DNA from: Candidatus Pacearchaeota archaeon
GTDB taxonomy: Archaea; Nanobdellota; Nanobdellia; Pacearchaeales; GW2011-AR1
Reading direction: 5' to 3'
Length of the DNA stretch: 34,115 nt
NCBI GenBank assembly: GCA_018304045.1
Contig: JAGVWZ010000015.1
Location: 1-34,115, forward strand
A model generated the notes under the pieces. The model saw nothing but the letters and a program-made list of their open reading frames with translations. It was not told the origin of the DNA and made no database searches. Of this stretch, positions 1,785 through 31,697 are shown piece by piece (position 1 is the first letter of the stretch; every line of letters starts with the position of its first letter). Position numbers and translations under genes: made by a program.

Positions 1785-3680
1785 ACCTTAAGAGTCTCAG
1801 GAATTAGACCCGCCGTTTGATGGGTCTTAGACGCGTTGAAACACGCTTTGAAGCACCACCACTGGGCAGGCTTCACCGGTTATACAAGTCTTTTCAGATT
1901 AGCAACCGGCTACGTTTTTGATAAACAGTCGGACCGTCCTTGTTATTGAAATCTACCAATGCATTTCCATTTCTAAAAACACAAAGATAGACACCCCTTC
2001 TACCTAAGCTAAAGGGCCAATGTTGCCGAATTCCCTTAACCACGTTAAACTTTCATATCTTAGCCTTCTCAGCTAGGGCATCAGTGTCAAATCTAGGTAC
2101 AGATATGTATTTTCTATACACAACCTTTTCACTGGCTCCTGGAATCAGCAACTTTTACTTTATGAATTTTTTTAGATCTAAACATTACATTCCCTAATTT
2201 TCTTCACAAAGACTTTCTCTCGAAAATTTGCTTATCCTGAAGCGAGTCGTGCACTCAAACGAATTTACATAGTGCAGGAATATTAACCTACTATCCATTA
2301 CCACTTCCTATTAAAGAGTGACTTAGGTTCTGACTAACCCTTGGTTAATTGTTATTGCCAAGGAAACCTTGCCCTTACGATATTTCGCGATTCTCAGCGA
2401 AATTAGTTCTTACTCCTCCCAAGATTCTCATTCCTTCCCGCTCCATTCCTTCTCTCGAAGAAACTTCTCAGCAGAAAAGACGCCTGCTTACCACAATACT
2501 TCCACAGAAGTATGTCTATAGTATCGGTATCATGTTTTAGTCCTGTCCATTTTCAGGGCCTCAAACCTCGATAGGTGAGCTGTTACGCTTTCTTTAAAGG
2601 ATGACGGCTTCTATGTCTACCTCCCCAGTGTCTCAGGTTTAAGACTCCCTTTGATACACTTAACATGAATTTTAGGACCTTAACTATAGTCTCCCTTGTT
2701 CGGGTCTCGTGACTCCACCTTACGCGGAGCCACTGTTTCCCATTATTTTCGCCCTACAGTTTCCGAGTTGGAAAGTTGTCCGTAGGAAAAACCCTCTGCA
2801 ACACCTATCCGTACTTTACACCGTAGGGAAGAATAATGAGACTATACGTAGGCATATTTCAGCAGGAACCAGCCATTGCCAGATTCGATAGGCTTTTCAC
2901 CCCTAATCACAAATCATCATAGTGCATGCATACAACAATTGTTCAGACCTCCATTTTCCTTTCGGAAAACTTCATCTTGCTCATGATTAGATCATCTGGC
3001 TTCAGGTCTCACACAAGTGACTAACGCTATTTCTAACTTGCTTTCGCTTTGGCTACCTAATGTTAACCTTGCCACTTGATTGAACTCCTTGGGCCGTTTT
3101 TCAAGACGTACGTTACAACCCTCCTTAGAGGGCAGTAACCAACTGTAACTGTTAGATTTCAAGTCTTTTAACTCTCTTTTAAGAGTTCTTTTCAGCATTC
3201 CTTCGCAGTACTAGTTCGCTATCGGACTTAAGCTAATATTTAGGGTTAGCAGTTAATTCTGCCATATTCATGCATCTAATTCGAGATACACTACTCTATT
3301 AAACATATCCATATCAGTTGAACCTACGAGGCTATCACTCTCTAAGGCATCTCGTTCCAGAGAATTTTGGTTCCTGATTTAGGACATATAGTTCACCACA
3401 TCTCTTGCTTTCTTTCGAAAGAGATTCAGTTTGCCCTATTCCCTGTTCGCTCGCTGCTATTAAGGGTATCACATATTTGTTTTCTCTTCCTGCCGGTACT
3501 AAGATGTTTCAATTCCCAGCGTGTGTTTTCTTCTCAGATTTATTGCGTTCTCGCATTCGGAAATCTCTGGATCAAATCTCGCATGCAAATCCCCAGAGCT
3601 TATCGCAGCTTGCCACGTCCTTCATCACAGCTTAAACCAAGCTATCCGTCTAACAGTATGAGTAAAAATTTTATCTGCTT

Positions 3681-3714
3681 GAGTAAAACTAAGATTCAGT
3701 CTCTTGTCTGTATC
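3681..3714. repeat. 5' arm of the 23S rRNA processing stem (inverted repeat with 144..180)
   Basis: Long inverted complement flanking the whole 23S gene, as in the processing stems of archaeal pre-rRNA. Confidence 0.85.
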
Positions 3715-4125: not shown

Positions 4126-4156
4126 TTTATTTTCCTATCATCTACTTGTTTTTTAA

Positions 4157-4191
4157 ATCCTTCCAAGAAAAATTCTCGGAATTCATGTTTT
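4157..4191. repeat. 35-bp near-direct repeat containing a hairpin, on the 23S-proximal side of tRNA-Ala
   Basis: ATCCTTCCAAGAAAAATTCTCGGAATTCATGTTTT; 30/35 identical to 4350..4384. Confidence 0.75.
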
Positions 4192-4302: not shown

Positions 4303-4349
4303 TCTGATACTTTACCTGAAAAGCCTAAATTGGCTTTTGATCCATATGA

Positions 4350-4384
4350 ATCCTTCCAAGATTTTTTCTTGGAATTCATGTTTT
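4350..4384. repeat. 35-bp near-direct repeat containing a hairpin, on the 16S-proximal side of tRNA-Ala
   Basis: ATCCTTCCAAGATTTTTTCTTGGAATTCATGTTTT. Confidence 0.75.
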
Positions 4385-11809: not shown

Positions 11810-11900
11810 ATTTCCTTCGGAAATTAACAGACTGAGAATTTAAGAAATTCTCAGGATTTCAAAAAACTTGTTTGTTAAAAACGAAGTTTTTCGCTGTTTT
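11810..11900 (-). promoter_or_regulatory. Structured 5' leader of rpoK (two hairpins)
   Basis: Minus strand: CAAAAAACAG-CGAAAAAC-TTC-GTTTTT-...-GTTTTTTG, then CTGAGAATTT-CTT-AAATTCTCAG; TATA-like GAGTATATATAAC just upstream. Confidence 0.5.
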
Positions 11901-11953
11901 TTGAATCGTTATGTTATATATACTCTAAAATATAGGTTTATAAATTATTTGGT

Positions 11954-14251: not shown

Positions 14252-14401
14252 TTATTCTATATCTCCCTCATCTAATTGAGTATCTTCGTTTTTTGGAAAA
14301 TTAGTTCCATAATTATCTGATTGATCTTCCCTATTTTCAGTTTGATATGGGCCCCTGTGTTTAGCATGATACCAACCTGATTGATCATTTGATTCTATCA
14401 T
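14252..14401 (-). CDS. Tiny unknown ORF in the exosome operon (49 aa), absent from the supplied ORF track
   Basis: Translates to MIESNDQSGWYHAKHRGPYQTENREDQSDNYGTNFPKNEDTQLDEGDIE*; preceded by AAGGGAGAG and an ATGA overlap. Confidence 0.55.
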   Translation of the reverse strand: MIESNDQSGWYHAKHRGPYQTENREDQSDNYGTNFPKNEDTQLDEGDIE

Positions 14402-14427
14402 TTTTTCTCTCCCTTTAAGAAATTTTC
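14398..14427. repeat. 30-bp perfect direct repeat, copy 1
   Basis: TCATTTTTTCTCTCCCTTTAAGAAATTTTC, identical to 14475..14504. Confidence 0.9.
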
Positions 14428-14478
14428 TACCTCTGAAACTTTACCTCTTAAAGTGAAGATTTGAAAATTTCTTTTCAT
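14398..14478 (-). CDS. 26-codon mini-ORF derived from the rrp4 3' end
   Basis: MKRNFQIFTLRGKVSEVENFLKGEKK*; ATGA overlaps at both ends; C-terminal 10 residues identical to the Rrp4 tail VENFLKGEKK. Confidence 0.4.
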   Translation of the reverse strand: MKRNFQIFTLRGKVSEVENFLKGEKK

Positions 14479-14504
14479 TTTTTCTCTCCCTTTAAGAAAT
14501 TTTC
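14475..14504. repeat. 30-bp perfect direct repeat, copy 2 (3' end of rrp4)
   Basis: TCATTTTTTCTCTCCCTTTAAGAAATTTTC. Confidence 0.9.
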
Positions 14505-15212
14505 AACCTTATCTGTAAGTCCTGAAACAGCAGTATCTTTTACTATTAATTGAATTGCCTCTTCTGCTTTATTTTCTCCTTCAGCATCACCCTTAATCCA
14601 TATATAACCATTCTGTCCAACATTAATTTCAGTTTTTGTTGAATCTTTTATTAGATTAATCATACTTCCTTCTTTACCAATAACTCTTGGAACTTTATGA
14701 GGATTTATTTTTATTAATCTTCCATCATCAAGTCTTCCAAGTCCCCTTGCCTTTAATGTCAAATCAACTCCACTTTTTTTTACACCTGCTATTTTAACAG
14801 CCATTATTTCCCCAATTGCTGCAAATTCATCAAGATTATTCCTATTGATAAATCTAGGACATTCCATTAAAGGTAAGAATGCGCTGTAAGGACCTCCAAT
14901 ATCCATCATCCATCCAGAAAAATTAATATCCTCAACTCTTCCAATAACATTATTTCCCCTTCTAGGTTCAAAAACACCAGAAATAGGAATTATTCTAGCA
15001 ACTCTTCCATTAATTTCAACTAATCCATATCTATTTGCAACAATATTATTTCCTTCTTTCCTTGTAAAATCTCCTGGCAAAAATTCTTCTCCTTCAGCAA
15101 TTATTTCACCAGGAACAACTAGTTTTCTTTCCTTCTTAGTATCGAATTCTTCACCAACTATGTTGTTGTCTTCGAAATTTTCTTGATCCTCTGTAAATTC
15201 TTTATATGTCAT
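14475..15212 (-). CDS. rrp4: Exosome complex RNA-binding component Rrp4
   Basis: KLVVPGEIIAEGEEFLPGDFTRKEGNNIVANRYGLVEINGRVARIIPISGVFEPRRGNNVIGRVEDINFSGWMMDIG and KH-like NPHKVPRVIGKEGSMINLIKDST. Confidence 0.94.
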   Translation of the reverse strand: MTYKEFTEDQENFEDNNIVGEEFDTKKERKLVVPGEIIAEGEEFLPGDFTRKEGNNIVANRYGLVEINGRVARIIPISGVFEPRRGNNVIGRVEDINFSGWMMDIGGPYSAFLPLMECPRFINRNNLDEFAAIGEIMAVKIAGVKKSGVDLTLKARGLGRLDDGRLIKINPHKVPRVIGKEGSMINLIKDSTKTEINVGQNGYIWIKGDAEGENKAEEAIQLIVKDTAVSGLTDKVENFLKGEKK

Positions 15213-21179: not shown

Positions 21180-21297
21180 TTAAGACTGAGAAAATCTTTT
21201 TTCGCACCCCGTGGTTTTAACCACGAATAAGAAAAAAGATTTTCGAGGTGATAAAGAACTCGAAAACAATCGGGGTTAAAAAGCCGAGTTCTTTACA
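21180..21297 (+). ncRNA. Structured repeated element, copy 1 (strand uncertain)
   Basis: GAAAATCTTTTTT/AAAAAAGATTTTC 13-bp stem enclosing CGTGGTT-TT-AACCACG, then AAGAACTCG...CGAGTTCTT; highly similar to 25167..25289. Confidence 0.6.
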
Positions 21298-21355
21298 GAT
21301 AGATATTTAAATTATAATACTCTTTATATAATAAAAAAGAGGATATGCTGATTAT

Positions 21356-22690
21356 ATGAAAATTTATGCAATAGGCGGTTTTAATGAAGTTGGAAAAAAC
21401 ATGACTGCTGTTGATTTAGGAGAAGATGTAATTATTTTTGATTGCGGATTATACCTCCCACCTATCGTAGAGCTAGAAGAATCAGAACGAGTCTATACTG
21501 AAAAAAGATTGAGGCAAATAGGCGCTGTTCCATCAGATGAAATCTTAGATGGTTTAAATTTAAGAGAAAAAGTAAGAGCAATTATTCCAAGTCATGCTCA
21601 TTTAGACCATATAGGAGCAATTCCATTTTTAGCCCATAGATATAATGCAGATATAATCGGAACACCTTTTACAATAGAAGTTCTTAAAACTCTTTTAAAT
21701 GAAGAACAACAACACCTAACAAATAGGATGAGAATTGTTCAGCCAAATTCTTTTTGTCATGTTCAAGGAAAAAACAAAAAATATAAAGTAGAATTCATAA
21801 ATATAACTCATTCAACACTTCAAACATCAATGATAGCACTTCATACAGATGAAGGCATTGTTCTTTATTCCAATGATTTTAAGTTGGATAACAATCCTAT
21901 TCTTGGAAAAAAACCCAATTATGAAAGATTAAAAGAAATTGGAAAAGAAGGAGTAAAAGTTATGATAGTGGATTCTCTTTATTCAGGAGATGAAAGAAAA
22001 ACAGCAAGTGAAAAAGTCGCAAGAACTCTTCTTGAAGAAGTAATGCTGACAACCAACAATGAAAAAGCAGCAGTATTTGTCACAACTTTTTCTTCCCACA
22101 TTGCAAGATTAAAATCCATTGTAGAATTTGGAAAACAATTAAACAGAAGAATAATATTTTTAGGAAGGAGTTTAAATAAATATGTAGTTTCTGCATCAAA
22201 AGTAGACCTATGCCCATTTATCCATGATATTGAAATAGCAACCTATAAAAATCAATTGGAAAAAAAACTAAAATTAATAAGCAAGAACAGGTCTCAGTAT
22301 CTAGTTGTATGTACAGGTCATCAAGGAGAACCAGGAAGTATTATGGACAGGATTTCAAGGAATAAACTGCCATTTCAATTTGAAAATGGAGATCATGCAA
22401 TTTTTTCTTCATCAGTTATTCCAACAAAAATAAACATAGAAAACAGGGAAAGATTAGACCAAAGATTGAGAAAAAGAGGGACAAGGTTGTTTAGTAATAT
22501 TCATGTTTCAGGTCATGCTGGAAGAGAAGATCTTAGAGATTTTATCAACATGGTTAATCCAGAACATATAATTCCTGCCCATGGTAGTCATGATAAAATT
22601 TCTCCAATGGTGAGTCTTGGAGAAGAACTAGGTTATAAAAACAATAAGAACATTCATTTATTAAATGATAGGCAAAAATTAGATTTATAA
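21356..22690 (+). CDS. RNase J-type beta-CASP metallo-beta-lactamase ribonuclease
   Basis: GGFNEVGKNMTAVDLGEDVIIFDCG...IPSHAHLDHIGAIPFL...VFVTTFSSHIARLKSI...CTGHQGEPGSIMDR...HVSGHAGREDLRDFI...PAHGSHD. Confidence 0.95.
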   Translation: MKIYAIGGFNEVGKNMTAVDLGEDVIIFDCGLYLPPIVELEESERVYTEKRLRQIGAVPSDEILDGLNLREKVRAIIPSHAHLDHIGAIPFLAHRYNADIIGTPFTIEVLKTLLNEEQQHLTNRMRIVQPNSFCHVQGKNKKYKVEFINITHSTLQTSMIALHTDEGIVLYSNDFKLDNNPILGKKPNYERLKEIGKEGVKVMIVDSLYSGDERKTASEKVARTLLEEVMLTTNNEKAAVFVTTFSSHIARLKSIVEFGKQLNRRIIFLGRSLNKYVVSASKVDLCPFIHDIEIATYKNQLEKKLKLISKNRSQYLVVCTGHQGEPGSIMDRISRNKLPFQFENGDHAIFSSSVIPTKINIENRERLDQRLRKRGTRLFSNIHVSGHAGREDLRDFINMVNPEHIIPAHGSHDKISPMVSLGEELGYKNNKNIHLLNDRQKLDL

Positions 22691-22691
22691 A

Positions 22692-23516
22692 ATGGTAATA
22701 GAAGAAATAGTAACATCTTTAAAAAATGCAGTAGCTCATGGAGATTCTTTAGAAACTGCAATTCAATTAGCAATTAATTCAGGTTATAATCCTAAAGATG
22801 TTAAAGAAGCATCACAATTTGTTTCAGGAAGTGCTGTTTCCTTTTTACAGCCAAGACATGATGAACAATTTGCAATGCCTGCTCAAAAAAGATTTTTTAC
22901 AGGAAATCCTGTAGGTATTCCAAAGCCAAATATACAAAGGCCAGGAATAAGGCCTTTTTCAGCTCAAGCTCTTCAACAACCACAACAAATGCAATCAAAT
23001 CAAATGCAACCAGTTCCATCAAGTCAATTCAGTAAAAATCAACAAATTCCACCTAATACAAATCAGCAACAGCAAAATCAAAACAAACCAACACAACAAA
23101 CTCAACAACAAAATAATTTAGCTCAACAAACTCAACAAACTCAACAACAAAATAATATATTACAACTAACTCAACCATACTCACAATCACAGCAATTGCA
23201 AACTAACCAACCATCTCAACCAATTACAAATCAAATAACAAACATAAGACAGGATAGTCAGGCAATAAAACAAAACATAAGTGATGGTTCTGTATATGCC
23301 AATGAGAATTCATCCTATAATAATCCATTCACTTCCTCCTCCCAATCCTCCTCACAGTCATTATCAAGAGAACTTGATAATATAAAACCTACAAAAGAAG
23401 GTCATATGAAAGAAATTCTTCTTCTTTTAGTATTAATCATATTAATAGGATTGTTAATTTTAAGTTTTGTATTCAAAAATCAAATTCTAGATTTTTTCAC
23501 AACACTTTCAGGATAA
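22692..23516 (+). CDS. Gln/Asn-rich low-complexity protein with a C-terminal tail anchor
   Basis: About 130-residue Q/N-rich segment; C-terminal TM ILLLLVLIILIGLLILSFVF; starts 1 nt after the RNase J stop. Confidence 0.8.
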   Translation: MVIEEIVTSLKNAVAHGDSLETAIQLAINSGYNPKDVKEASQFVSGSAVSFLQPRHDEQFAMPAQKRFFTGNPVGIPKPNIQRPGIRPFSAQALQQPQQMQSNQMQPVPSSQFSKNQQIPPNTNQQQQNQNKPTQQTQQQNNLAQQTQQTQQQNNILQLTQPYSQSQQLQTNQPSQPITNQITNIRQDSQAIKQNISDGSVYANENSSYNNPFTSSSQSSSQSLSRELDNIKPTKEGHMKEILLLLVLIILIGLLILSFVFKNQILDFFTTLSG

Positions 23517-23517
23517 A

Positions 23518-24315
23518 ATGGAAATTTACCAGCCTTCAGAAGATTCTCATCTTCTTTCAAATTCAGTAAAAGATTATTTAATCAATCTTAATAAGAAAAT
23601 CAATAATATTACTAATATCAATAATGTTAAATATAATAAGTCAAGTAACAATAAATATAATCCATATAGCTTAGCTTCTTTTATTAATCCTAATCACATT
23701 AATAATAAATCAATAAATTCTAATAACAACAATAATTCTAACTTATCTGCTAAATTTAAATCTTCAAATCTCATCAACTCTAACAAATCTCCACTATCAT
23801 CTTCCAATCACATTAATGATATTAAGGATTTAATTAAAATTATTGATATTGGTTCTGGCTCTGGTATTCAGGCAAAAACCTGCAAGAAATTAGGTTTTAA
23901 TAATATTTTAACATCTGACATAAATCCTAATGTAATAAAATCATTAAAAAAACAAGGATTTAAATCAATAAATTCCAATTTATTTGAAAAAATAAAAGGC
24001 AAATTTGATTTAATTATATTCAATCCACCCTATCTTCCAGAAGATAAAAATGAACCCCCAGATTCAAGACATGCAACAACAGCAGGAAAACAAGGCTATG
24101 AAATTATAATTAAATTTCTAAAGCAAGCTAAATCTCATTTAGAAACTAAGGGAACAATTCTTTTGTTATTTTCGTCTCTAAGCAAGCCAAATATAATCAA
24201 AAAACAAGCCAAAGCCCTAGGCTACGGCCTAAAACTTATAAAAAAACAAAATCTTTTCTTTGAAAAGATTTTCGTATATAAAATAAAGAGGAAACAATCA
24301 AAAGCTCTTTTATAG
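23518..24315 (+). CDS. HemK/Mtq2-type N5-glutamine methyltransferase with an Asn-rich insertion
   Basis: N-terminal YQPSEDSHLL; motif I IIDIGSGSGIQA; LIIFNPPYLPED; about 80-aa N/S/K-rich insert between them. Confidence 0.88.
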   Translation: MEIYQPSEDSHLLSNSVKDYLINLNKKINNITNINNVKYNKSSNNKYNPYSLASFINPNHINNKSINSNNNNNSNLSAKFKSSNLINSNKSPLSSSNHINDIKDLIKIIDIGSGSGIQAKTCKKLGFNNILTSDINPNVIKSLKKQGFKSINSNLFEKIKGKFDLIIFNPPYLPEDKNEPPDSRHATTAGKQGYEIIIKFLKQAKSHLETKGTILLLFSSLSKPNIIKKQAKALGYGLKLIKKQNLFFEKIFVYKIKRKQSKALL

Positions 24316-24323
24316 AGCTTTTT
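24300..24323 (+). terminator. Hairpin plus T-tract at the end of the RNase J operon
   Basis: AAAAGCTCT-TTTAT-AGAGCTTTT(T), overlapping the stop codon. Confidence 0.5.
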
Positions 24324-24367
24324 GTTTATGAAATAAAAATAAAGAAAAAATAAGAAAAAATTTAGTT

Positions 24368-25009
24368 TTATCTACAAGCAGTTAAACTTCTATATAATAT
24401 TCCTTTTTCATTTACACAAGCATAAGCACTTCCATTGCCAGTCATATTATTTGAAGCAATTACTCCTTGAAATCTAGTTAAAGAAGCCTTAACAACTAAT
24501 TGGTCAAGAATAGTTTCTAATACCACTCCACTAGGAGATCCTGTTTTTATTAAAGTTAAATCTCCCTCTAATTTTGCTAGTCCTGAATAAGGTGTTATTG
24601 TAAGACTTCCGTTTTCATTACTTTTGAATACAACACCTCCTGTGTATCCTACTTTAGTTAGAGTTAAATCTGATTCTAATTTTGTATATCCTGACTGCGG
24701 AGTTATAGTCAAACTTCCCTCATTGTTTGTTTTGAAAACTGCACCACCAGATTGTCCTATTTTAGTTAATGTTAAATCAGATTCTAACTTAGTAACCCCT
24801 GTTCTAGATGATAACTTTAAAGCATTTCCACTTGAGATTGTTCCCTGAACTTCACAAATAGAATCTGCATCACAAGAATTTGCTTTTAGATTACTTTGAA
24901 AAATTGCATTTCCAGTTATAGAAGAAGTTGCAACAGATGCAACAACAGCAATAACAAGAACAGCTCCAATTAAGAACCACAAATTAACATTAATATTATT
25001 ATTTTTCAT
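24368..25009 (-). CDS. Secreted/anchored protein with 36-aa tandem repeats
   Basis: Signal anchor ...ATSSITGNAIF; repeats TKLESDLTLTKIGQSGGAVFKTNNEGSLTITPQSGY / TKLESDLTLTKVGYTGGVVFKSNENGSLTITPYSGL / AKLEGDLTLIKTGSPSGVVLE. Confidence 0.8.
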   Translation of the reverse strand: MKNNNINVNLWFLIGAVLVIAVVASVATSSITGNAIFQSNLKANSCDADSICEVQGTISSGNALKLSSRTGVTKLESDLTLTKIGQSGGAVFKTNNEGSLTITPQSGYTKLESDLTLTKVGYTGGVVFKSNENGSLTITPYSGLAKLEGDLTLIKTGSPSGVVLETILDQLVVKASLTRFQGVIASNNMTGNGSAYACVNEKGILYRSLTACR

Positions 25010-25166
25010 AATATATTTTTATTTATTTAAACCTCTTTTCATCATCTTTTTACTTATCTATTAATAAAAACAGAATTTATATATATATGTTTTTACTAAC
25101 TTAATTATTAAACCTTCTTAATTTAAGCATATTTCCAACTACAATTATCCTTAAACATCAAAAATC

Positions 25167-25289
25167 TTAAGACTTAGAAAATCTTTTTTTCGCACCATCG
25201 AAGGTTTTTAACCTCCAAGAAAGAAAAAAGATTTTCGAGGTGATAAAGAACTCGAAAAAATTCGGAGTTTTAACGCCAAGTTCTTTACA
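25167..25289 (+). ncRNA. Structured repeated element, copy 2 (strand uncertain)
   Basis: Same 5' and 3' blocks as 21180..21297; stem GAAAATCTTTTTT/AAAAAAGATTTTC; inner hairpin AGGTT-TTT-AACCT. Confidence 0.6.
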
Positions 25290-25344: not shown

Positions 25345-25378
25345 TAACCCTATTTTAATACAAATAGGGGTATTATTT
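25345..25378 (+). promoter_or_regulatory. Hairpin in the mre11 leader overlapping an SD-like AGGGG
   Basis: CCCTATTT-TAATAC-AAATAGGG, 8 nt upstream of the TTG start. Confidence 0.45.
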
Positions 25379-26568
25379 TGAAATTCGCACACATAGCAGA
25401 TAGTCATCTTGGAGGTTGGAGACAGCCAGAATTACAGCTCCTTAATTTAGAATCCTTTAGAGTAGCCATAGATACTTGTATTAATGAAAAAGTAGAATTT
25501 ATTCTATTTTCAGGAGATTTATTTGACTCTGCATTTCCACCAATAGAAACATTAAAAGAAACTTTTAATGAATTCAGAAAATTAAAAGAAGCAGGCATAA
25601 AATCATTCATAATAGCAGGAAGCCATGATTATTCTGTTTCAGGAAAAACATTTTTAGATGTACTTGAAAAAGCAGGATTCTGTGAAATATGCAAATATGA
25701 ACTTGATGAAGTAAATAATAAAATAATTCTCAAGCCATCTATATTCAAATCCAATTATATCTATGGCTATCCTGGAAAAAAATCAGGGCTTGAAATCCAG
25801 GATTTAAGAAAAATAGAAATAAAAGAAGATTATTCTAATTATTTCAGGATTTTAATGCTTCATACAACAATAACTGAAGTTGCTGAAAGTCTGCCCATAG
25901 AAACAATAGACCTTTCTTTAATGCCAAAAGCAGACTACTATGCACTTGGACACATACATGTTGATTTTGAAAAAGAAATCAATGGAAAACCCGCAATATA
26001 CGGAGGCCCAACCTTTCCTAATAATTTCAAAGAACTAGAAGAACTAAAATACGGTTCTTTTTACATTATAACAATAGAAGGATTTACAAAAATAACAAAA
26101 AAAGAAATAAAATTAAAAGAAGTAGAATTAGTTGAAATAAACATTGAAAATTCATTAAAAGGAACAGAAAAGATTCTAAATGAACTTGAAAAAAAAAATA
26201 TTAAAGACAAGATAGTTCTTTTAAAAATATATGGAAAATTAAAAGAGGGAAAAATATCAGATATAAAATTCCAGGAAATAGAAGATTACTTGAAAAAAGT
26301 AAATGCTTATTCTTTTTTAAAAAACATTTCTAAACTTGAGATTGAAAAAGAAGGTTTTGAACCTCAAATGCAAACAGGAGAAATGGAAAATGTAGAAGAA
26401 ATTTTAGTTAAAAGATATGAAAAAGAAAATCCATCTAACTTCAATGAATATATTTTTCCACTTATAGAATCTTTAAGTCTAGAAAAACAAGAAGGAGAAA
26501 CATCTAATATTTTTGAATCTCGTTTAGTCTCTGAAATAAACAAAGTTATGGAATTAGATTTACAATGA
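25378..26568 (+). CDS. mre11: DNA double-strand break repair nuclease Mre11
   Basis: KFAHIADSHLGGW...LFSGDLFDSA...IIAGSHDYS...LMLHTTI...YYALGHIHVD...YGGPTF; TTG start. Confidence 0.93.
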   Translation: MKFAHIADSHLGGWRQPELQLLNLESFRVAIDTCINEKVEFILFSGDLFDSAFPPIETLKETFNEFRKLKEAGIKSFIIAGSHDYSVSGKTFLDVLEKAGFCEICKYELDEVNNKIILKPSIFKSNYIYGYPGKKSGLEIQDLRKIEIKEDYSNYFRILMLHTTITEVAESLPIETIDLSLMPKADYYALGHIHVDFEKEINGKPAIYGGPTFPNNFKELEELKYGSFYIITIEGFTKITKKEIKLKEVELVEINIENSLKGTEKILNELEKKNIKDKIVLLKIYGKLKEGKISDIKFQEIEDYLKKVNAYSFLKNISKLEIEKEGFEPQMQTGEMENVEEILVKRYEKENPSNFNEYIFPLIESLSLEKQEGETSNIFESRLVSEINKVMELDLQ

Positions 26569-29807: not shown

Positions 29808-31697
29808 ATGTCAGACATTCTAAAAGATATACAAAACGACTTACCTAAAGGTCTAATTAGCAGTGCAAATTTTGAAGGAGCAAACATAGTTCTCTATACA
29901 GATGACATTGAATTTTTTAAAGACAATCAAGGAAAAATAAAAGAACTTGTAAACAAGTTCAAAAAAAGAGTAGAATTAAGAGCAGATGAAAAACTTCTAA
30001 AATCAGAAGAAGAAACACGGAAATTAATAAAAGATATAATTCCCGTTGAAGCAGAAGTTACAGAAATTTTATTTGATGCCCAAAGAAGCATAGTTGTTAT
30101 AGAAGCAAAAAAACCAGGATTAGTAATTGGAAAAGAAGGTTCTATTTTGAAAGAAGTTAAAGACCAAACCCTTTGGATTCCAGAAGTTCAAAGAAGCCCT
30201 GCAATTCAAAGTAAAATTACAGAAAATATTCGTGCTGTTTTGTATCAGACCAATAATTCAAGAAAAAAATTTCTTAACTCTGTTGGAAAAAAAATCTACA
30301 AAGAATGGAATCCTGAAAAAGTAGAAGAGTGGATAAGAGTTACTTTTTTAGGTGGTGGAAGACAAGTTGGAAGGTCCTGTATACTTTTACAAACACCACA
30401 AACAAAAATACTTCTAGACTGTGGAATAAACGTAGCTGGAAAAGGAAAAGAAAAATTTCCATACCTAGATGTTTCTGAATTTAAAATAAATGAATTAGAT
30501 GCAATAATTTTATCCCATGCACACGTTGACCATAGCGGACTTATACCTTATTTATTTAAAATGGGTTATCAAGGGCCTGTTTACATGACTGCTCCAACAA
30601 GAGACATTGCAGCACTTCTTGCATTGGATTTTATAGGAGTTGCCCATAAACAAGCTTCCTCACCTTTATTTTCTTCAACAGACATAAAAGAAATGGTTAA
30701 ACACACTATTTGTTTGGATTACAATGAAGTTACTGATATTGCACCTGATATGAGGATAACCTTATATAATGCAGGCCATGCTTTAGGAAGTTCAATTGTT
30801 CATCTTAATATCGGCAATGGAGCCCATAATTTAGTTTATTCAGGAGATTATAAGTTTGACAGAACAAGATTGTTAGATAGGGCAGTTGCAAATTTTCCAA
30901 GGCTTGAAACTTTTATAACAGAAGCAACCTATGGTGGAAAAAATAATCTTCTGCCATCAAGAGCAGAAGCAGAAGAACAACTTTTAAATACCCTAAAAGA
31001 AACAATTGCAAAAGGTGGAAAAGTTCTTATTCCAGAATTAGGATTAGGAAGAGCCCAGGAAACAATGTTAATTCTAGAAGAAGCAATGAGAACAAACAAA
31101 CTTCCAAAAGTTCCAATATACATAGATGGAATGATTTGGGATATTAATGGAATTCATACAGCATATCCTGATTTTCTTAACACAAACATAAGAAGAGATG
31201 TTTTTCAAGATAATAATCCATTTGTTTCAGATATGTTCAAAAGAATTGGTTCAGCTCAAGAAAGAAAACAAGTTATTGAAGGAGGCTCATGTGTTGTTCT
31301 TGCAACATCAGGAATGCTTCAAGGAGGAGCTTCAGTAGAATACTTCAGGCATTTTAGCCAAAGTAAAGATAATAAAATATGTTTTGTCTGCTATCAAGGA
31401 ACAGGTTCTTTAGGAAGGCAAATCCAAGATGGAATTAAACAAATACAAATGAATGTAGAAGGAAATGAAGAAAATATAGACGTGAATATGGAAGTTATTA
31501 CAATTGATGGTCTTTCAGCCCATGCAGGAAGAAAAGAACTTCTTGATTTCATAAACAGAGTTCAGCCAAAACCCAATAGAATAATAATCAACCATGGAGA
31601 GCAATCAAGATGCTTAGATTTAGCATCTTCTTTATACAAATTACACCACATTGAAACAAATGTTCCTCGTAATTTAGAGACTATAAGGCTAAGATAA
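29808..31697 (+). CDS. fttA: aCPSF1 (KH + beta-CASP ribonuclease / transcription termination factor FttA)
   Basis: N-terminal KH region PGLVIGKEGSILKEV; VTFLGGGRQVGRSCILLQTPQTKILLDCGIN...LSHAHVDHSGLIPYLF...SGMLQGGASVEYFRHF...IDGLSAHAGRKELLDFI. Confidence 0.96.
   Translation: MSDILKDIQNDLPKGLISSANFEGANIVLYTDDIEFFKDNQGKIKELVNKFKKRVELRADEKLLKSEEETRKLIKDIIPVEAEVTEILFDAQRSIVVIEAKKPGLVIGKEGSILKEVKDQTLWIPEVQRSPAIQSKITENIRAVLYQTNNSRKKFLNSVGKKIYKEWNPEKVEEWIRVTFLGGGRQVGRSCILLQTPQTKILLDCGINVAGKGKEKFPYLDVSEFKINELDAIILSHAHVDHSGLIPYLFKMGYQGPVYMTAPTRDIAALLALDFIGVAHKQASSPLFSSTDIKEMVKHTICLDYNEVTDIAPDMRITLYNAGHALGSSIVHLNIGNGAHNLVYSGDYKFDRTRLLDRAVANFPRLETFITEATYGGKNNLLPSRAEAEEQLLNTLKETIAKGGKVLIPELGLGRAQETMLILEEAMRTNKLPKVPIYIDGMIWDINGIHTAYPDFLNTNIRRDVFQDNNPFVSDMFKRIGSAQERKQVIEGGSCVVLATSGMLQGGASVEYFRHFSQSKDNKICFVCYQGTGSLGRQIQDGIKQIQMNVEGNEENIDVNMEVITIDGLSAHAGRKELLDFINRVQPKPNRIIINHGEQSRCLDLASSLYKLHHIETNVPRNLETIRLR
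31677..31697. repeat. 21-bp direct repeat, copy 1 (3' end of aCPSF1 gene)
   Basis: GAGACTATAAGGCTAAGATAA. Confidence 0.95.

Follow-up and report, generated by a model that had tools for sequence, protein, structure and literature searches.

Transposons of the IS200/IS605 type have no inverted repeats, cause no duplications, and insert on the 3′ side of a tetra- or pentanucleotide (PMC7290912); for ISDra2, a member of this group, the target is TTGAT (PMC2806898). The PATEs of Haloquadratum walsbyi are gene-less archaeal elements derived from IS605-type transposons (PMC3119063), and REPINs are moved by RAYTs, which are relatives of the IS200/IS605 Y1 enzymes (PMC3116915). Here, we examine two copies of a short element, copy A and copy B, in a window of 34,115 nucleotides (the whole stretch of DNA analyzed) from a Candidatus Pacearchaeota archaeon. 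We find that both are members of a large and hitherto unnamed family of short, two-hairpin DNA elements in DPANN archaea, that the mobility of the element is well supported, and that it follows a single insertion-site rule: it lands just after TTNA, and its own right end is TTNA followed by CA.

When copy A (21180-21297) was searched against its own genome, copy B (25167-25289) was recovered with 85% identity (E = 1.8e-29), which confirms the pair reported in the original prediction, and the right-hand 69 nt of the two are 90% identical. The 13-bp stem said to be common to both, GAAAATCTTTTTT/AAAAAAGATTTTC, was found in each, and each copy forms two hairpins with GAGGTGA as the spacer between them. 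Hairpin 1 (GAAAATC.../...GATTTTC) encloses an inner hairpin, and hairpin 2 (TAAAGAACT.../...AGTTCTTTA), of which only a part had been recognized before, has CA immediately after it. Folded as RNA, copy A is far better than its shuffled versions (z = -5.5), while copy B gives a weaker result (z = -1.7 as RNA and -3.4 with DNA energies). The CACC/GGTG pseudoknot and the alternative CGAG...CTCG hairpin that had also been proposed are present in copies A and B but are not conserved in other members of the family. A Shine-Dalgarno-like linker, GAGGTGAT, was similarly considered and rejected, since it is present in copies A to E but is not kept outside them, being TCTGTC in the genome G004 and GAGCATGC elsewhere.

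Covariance models, the check suggested in the original prediction, recovered further copies, both in the same genome and in DPANN relatives. A first model (R1), built from four copies, gave nine matches in the genome itself, some of which are the same copy read on the opposite strand, leaving five solid copies, and it also matched relatives (45 matches in the congener G011, 19 in G012, 9 in G013, 8 in G015, and 7 in G004). One of the copies in the genome of the window, the third, is shorter with the same layout and lies within the gene for a P-type ATPase, in antisense orientation. A second model (R2), based on 31 divergent copies, detected the element in 10 of the 37 genomes sampled from the archaeal family, a count that includes the genome of the window, and in 20 of 281 sampled across the class, where its occurrence is patchy. 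The R1 results had suggested that the family is restricted to the genus, but this was overturned by R2 matches in other genera and families, with clear cases in G275 (13 copies, E = 5.5e-12), G166 (2.9e-11), G039 (2.2e-12), and G326 (2.0e-7); lone weak R2 matches, with E of about 1e-4 to 1e-3, may be due to chance. A right-end hairpin pattern matched in all 20 genomes tried, which were all known carriers, and its reversed control gave no match. The element is mostly about 50 to 150 nt in size, with no gene inside. Two broad pattern scans of viral contigs gave only chance matches, a right-end pattern gave three unrelated matches there, and stricter patterns gave none, in a set that covers DPANN poorly; no copies were found in plasmids either, with equally poor coverage of DPANN. 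Matches of a 15-mer across genome contigs were mostly due to chance. In the open-access literature searched for palindromic or mobile repeats of DPANN, we found no description of this family. Within the window, a further hairpin pair (TTAACAGACTGAGAATTT...AAATTCTCAGG...AAAAAACTTG...AAGTTTTT...TTTTTTGA) lies at 11826-11904 on the plus strand; its R2 match is weak (E = 0.02), and it may be a related element, or a degenerate one, that ends in TTGA.

The conservation of two hairpins in a fixed order, with pairing kept across the family, is strongly supported. In the 31 divergent copies, 94.2% of cells are paired, compared with 74.9% after shuffling, changes on both sides occur in 24 of 30 pairs, and the covariation score is 0.481, compared with at most 0.072 when partners were slid. 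The alignment was fitted to the model structure and hence favours it, but the margin is nonetheless large, and this check indicates that the structure is real. The most constant sequence is found at the feet of the hairpins (AAAAT/ATTTT and CAAGAAC/GTTCTTG), and the upper stems are variable yet still pair. Inner loops of the TTTA type occur in 33 of 40 left hairpins and 31 of 40 right hairpins. G-U pairs are rare, at about 3% of the paired cells in this alignment, and when 71 copies were folded singly they accounted for 157 of 2532 pairs on the plus strand and 173 of 2604 on the minus strand, with no strand bias. Given that G-U pairs are rare and that folding prefers neither strand, nothing points to an RNA.

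The evidence for mobility comes from comparing filled and empty sites. In the gene for a copper-type P-ATPase, a 69-nt insert (23 codons) is present in G000 and G012 and absent in G011, G004, G018, and G040, and in the gene for an Obg-type GTPase, a 105-nt insert (35 codons) is present in G012 and absent in the 93%-identical orthologue of G013. A third insert can be placed against a distant solved homologue: in the aspartate-semialdehyde dehydrogenase of G218, 40 residues take the place of 3 in structure 1ys4, that is, 37 additional amino acids or about 111 nt. All three lengths equal the length of the model match minus 2, which means that the insert spans either from after the left TTNA to the end of the right TTNA or the equivalent stretch shifted two bases to the right. 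At the filled and empty sites of the P-ATPase and GTPase genes, the target is not duplicated. Of 66 distinct sites, 46 have TTNA exactly at the left junction, compared with 0 to 7 at nearly all other offsets and 21 at the offset one base to the left, where there are runs of T, and 57 have TTNA followed by CA as the right end.

Many of the cores in G011 sit in larger multi-hairpin repeats that have their own ends under the same rule, with a left TTNA before TGTC(A/G)GAAA and, at the right, TTTTTTTGA followed by T, which is close to the TTGAT target of ISDra2. Such nested repeats are found, for instance, at L191, L207, L219, and L232, and one lies inside a remnant of tnpA (Y1) at the start of contig C59 (L286). 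Palindromic target sites were considered as a general rule and rejected, as outer pairing, although clear in G011 and hinted at in a few other copies, is not general. In most subfamilies, there are no terminal inverted repeats; G011 shows a weak TTAAGACC/GGTTCTTGA similarity if TTAA is counted. In G012, five copies with differing flanks (L252, L253, L255, L256, and L251) end at or near one shared point, four of them exactly after CCATGTGG, on the 5′ side of the hairpin-2 loop, as might result from cleavage at the hairpin tip or from an alternative right end. The features of the two window copies are collected in Table 1, in which the boundaries of copy A are taken from the filled and empty site pairs of other copies.

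Table 1. Coordinates of the two-hairpin elements and of the adjacent genes in the window.
Feature	Position	Strand	Basis
TTAA, target-type tetranucleotide (TTNA), left of copy A	21180..21183	+	TTNA exact at 46/66 left junctions
Copy A, long form, 112 nt (TTNA-to-TTNA parse), upstream of RNase J	21184..21295	+	R1/R2 matches, 100 bits, E = 1.8e-17
Copy A hairpin 1, 5′ arm (GAAAATCTTTTTTC)	21190..21203	+	Helix 2: 97% of cells paired, double changes in 12/13 pairs
Copy A inner hairpin within hairpin 1 (CGTGGTTTTAACCACG)	21210..21225	+	Folding; TTTA-type loop in 33/40 long-form representatives
Copy A hairpin 1, 3′ arm (GAAAAAAGATTTTC)	21231..21244	+	Helix 2 pairing analysis
Copy A hairpin 2, 5′ arm (TAAAGAACTCG)	21252..21262	+	Helix 3: 97% of cells paired
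Copy A hairpin 2, 3′ arm, ending in TTTA (right-end tetranucleotide), then CA at 21296-21297	21285..21295	+	TTNA-CA at 57/66 right ends
RNase J gene, bystander	21356..22690	+	PF22505
TTAA left of copy B	25167..25170	+	66-site junction analysis
Copy B, long form, 117 nt (TTNA-to-TTNA parse), upstream of Mre11	25171..25287	+	R2 match, 100 bits, E = 2e-17
Copy B hairpin 1, 5′ arm	25177..25191	+	Sequence and covariation analysis
Copy B hairpin 1, 3′ arm	25223..25236	+	Sequence and covariation analysis
Copy B hairpin 2, 5′ arm (TAAAGAACT)	25244..25252	+	Sequence and covariation analysis
Copy B hairpin 2, 3′ arm (AGTTCTTTA)	25279..25287	+	Sequence and covariation analysis
Mre11-like gene, bystander (a Rad50-like gene follows)	25378..26568	+	PF00149

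Besides the three inserts described above, two more copies lie in coding sequences and were identified from the filled gene: one of 75 nt in the gene for an AAA/DUF4143 ATPase of G258 and one of 51 nt in G060. The latter is inside an intein with a LAGLIDADG domain in a MoxR-type ATPase (L334 653-3052), so that this case is a repeat within a mobile element within a gene. Copies in reading frames are found on either strand. All five coding-sequence copies have net lengths divisible by three (69, 105, 111, 51, and 75 nt), compared with only 20 of 56 family representatives, and the simplest reading of this difference is that insertions that broke the frame have been lost; selection would thus remove frame-breaking insertions and leave the in-frame ones. 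Adaptation of the element to translation was also considered and rejected, because stop-free frames are not clearly enriched overall and most representatives have lengths that are not multiples of three.

Mobility is well supported by the sites described above, and from the form of the element we infer how it moves. Terminal hairpins, a left TTNA, a matching right TTNA, and the lack of duplication together match the outcome of IS200/IS605-type single-strand transposition. We therefore consider it probable, although far from certain, that copies A and B belong to a non-autonomous mobile DNA family moved as folded single-stranded DNA by an HUH (Y1-type) endonuclease acting in trans. Such an enzyme would bind the hairpins and cut after the left TTNA and after the right TTNA of the element itself, and the element would then be joined behind a different TTNA, in the manner of IS200/IS605, PATEs, and REPINs. 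On this view, the majority of copies, with A and B probably among them, would be inert passengers. An element of this kind would be expected to have, at the 5′ foot of each hairpin, a guide sequence that pairs with the cleavage site; in the right-end hairpin, the foot TCAA/TAAA/TTAA matches TTGA/TTTA/TTAA.

Several observations weigh against a Y1-type enzyme. No Y1 transposase was detected in the genome of the window, which is 86% complete, or in some other carriers, and some genomes without the family do possess Y1. The Y1 elements seen in the genus have GA(C/T)GTCA(C/T) at their ends, and the ends of the two-hairpin element do not occur in them. A link with TnpB was considered and rejected, as no match above the cut-off was found in the genus. 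No autonomous version was found among the right-end hairpins outside the model matches, nearly all of which are preceded by an element-type hairpin, and no guide complementary to TTNA was recognized at the left end. Finally, the exact position of the cut is ambiguous by two bases. On the other hand, the copies in this genome look old, as A and B are only 85% identical and the ATPase insertion is common to G012; given this age and the incompleteness of the assembly, the enzyme may have been lost.

Comparison with the described systems places the family close to several of them. The PATEs are, like these elements, archaeal, gene-less, and present in many copies, with palindromes near both ends, a short terminal oligonucleotide, and no target duplication. 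In contrast, PATE palindromes are akin to those of IS605-type transposons, a partner that was not found for the two-hairpin element, which is instead a compact hairpin pair reaching the ends. Kinship with the ends of resident IS605-type transposons, the feature that defines PATEs, was tested and not found, and thus we do not file the family as a PATE, even though it works like one. REPINs share the paired palindromes that can form hairpins in single-stranded DNA, the lack of autonomy, and the compensatory changes, but a REPIN consists of two inverted REPs and has a dedicated RAYT gene, whereas the feet of our two hairpins differ (AAAAT... and CAAGAAC...) and no dedicated gene is known; neither inverted REPs nor a linked RAYT was found, and the genome has no detected Y1. 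The G011 composites, with a left TTNA(T) and a right TTGA(T), recall ISDra2, although the latter encodes TnpA and TnpB and the two-hairpin elements encode nothing. The SMR-A of H. walsbyi are similar in size (about 110 bp), in having tens of copies, and in the absence of target duplication, and the G011 cores are likewise located inside palindromes of another repeat, but SMR-A have prominent inverted terminal repeats, of which only one of our subfamilies shows a weak counterpart (PMC3119063). The Rickettsia palindromic elements (RPEs) are also palindromic repeats in protein genes that are tolerated when in frame (PMC10969869); they are bacterial, however, and may be unrelated, and the two-hairpin copies are mostly intergenic, with five coding sites observed. 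The combination of terminal inverted repeats with target duplications that defines miniature inverted-repeat transposable elements was not seen at the filled and empty sites.

The best of the competing explanations, which we nevertheless regard as unlikely, retains the mobile DNA repeat and changes the agent, which might be a tyrosine recombinase acting on TTNANA and TTGACA cores, a replication initiator encoded by a DPANN plasmid or virus, or another enzyme. The failure to detect a Y1 gene in several carriers would be expected under this explanation, and the resemblance of the left hexamer TTNANA to the right-end TTNACA suits an exchange between short cores. Furthermore, no enzyme is known for SMR-A, which insert in palindromes belonging to other elements (PMC3119063), and the position of G011 copies within outer palindromes is similar. 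Nevertheless, single-strand transposition is the better fit for the fixed hairpins with TTTA-type loops at the two ends, for the tetranucleotide rule, and for the lack of duplication, and the viral contigs and plasmids searched, in which DPANN are poorly covered, held no copies. A broader version, which we likewise find unlikely, is that this is a class-wide and very old gene-less hairpin DNA of Nanoarchaeia that spreads without Y1 by means of a host or viral enzyme so far not linked to transposition and gives new in-frame segments to the proteins of reduced genomes.

It is very unlikely that the copies represent a structured RNA gene family, such as a two-hairpin guide RNA of the H/ACA type with ACA at its 3′ end, that is multicopy by chance. 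Two hairpins with a short linker, ACA after the second stem, and very strong covariation would all agree with such an RNA, but no Rfam family matches the element above the gathering threshold, in line with the original prediction, which had not recognized a known RNA family. In addition, the two strands pair equally well by the G-U counts above, the orientation relative to genes is random, reading-frame copies occur on either strand, and, by one of the two parses, CA falls outside the minimal insert. Of the fixed strand, RNA-type pairing, and gene-like location of H/ACA-type guides, none was found. A terminator, insulator, or leader acting in cis on the RNase J and Mre11 genes is the least credible explanation. 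Both window copies do contain T-runs and are located between divergent genes, upstream of a nuclease gene in each case, but the other copies, by simple open reading frame calls, are oriented almost at random to their neighbours (17 tandem same, 15 tandem opposite, 12 convergent, and 8 divergent, with some inside genes), their orientation and distance are not conserved, and they lie beside or within unrelated genes. That the two copies precede RNase J and Mre11 is thus uninformative, and the link with nuclease genes, although correctly noted for these two copies, is a coincidence. Among the options first listed for the element, the mobile repeat is the one upheld by the dispersed copies, the filled and empty sites, and the site rule, whereas the small RNA and the insulator or terminator are not.

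Other repeats and genes of the window were also recorded. Near-identical palindromic 36-mers (AATCCTTCCAAGA...CTTGGAATTCATGTTTT) at 4156-4191 and 4349-4384 lie on either side of a tRNA between the 16S and 23S rRNA genes, and a 35-nt inverted repeat (146-180 and 3679-3713, 94% complementary) brackets the 23S rRNA gene and is probably an rRNA processing stem. A 35-nt direct repeat (14398-14432 and 14475-14509, 97% identical, 77 nt apart) overlaps the end of a reading frame, and a gene for an FttA-type transcription termination factor with KH_TffA, beta-CASP, and RMMBL domains is located at 29808-31697.

The reduced genomes of DPANN are generally portrayed as containing little mobile DNA, and, to our knowledge, their intergenic repeats have been little studied. 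The family described here accounts for puzzling structured repeats that are found beside unrelated genes, and it calls for caution before such repeats are read as regulatory RNAs. Many of the G011 copies are located at contig ends, and the element probably breaks assemblies as well. Copies within reading frames show archaeal proteins growing in frame through the insertion of a repeat, which is known mainly from Rickettsia. Finally, a hairpin repeat that occurs across the class and follows a simple insertion rule offers a concrete target in the search for the enzyme.

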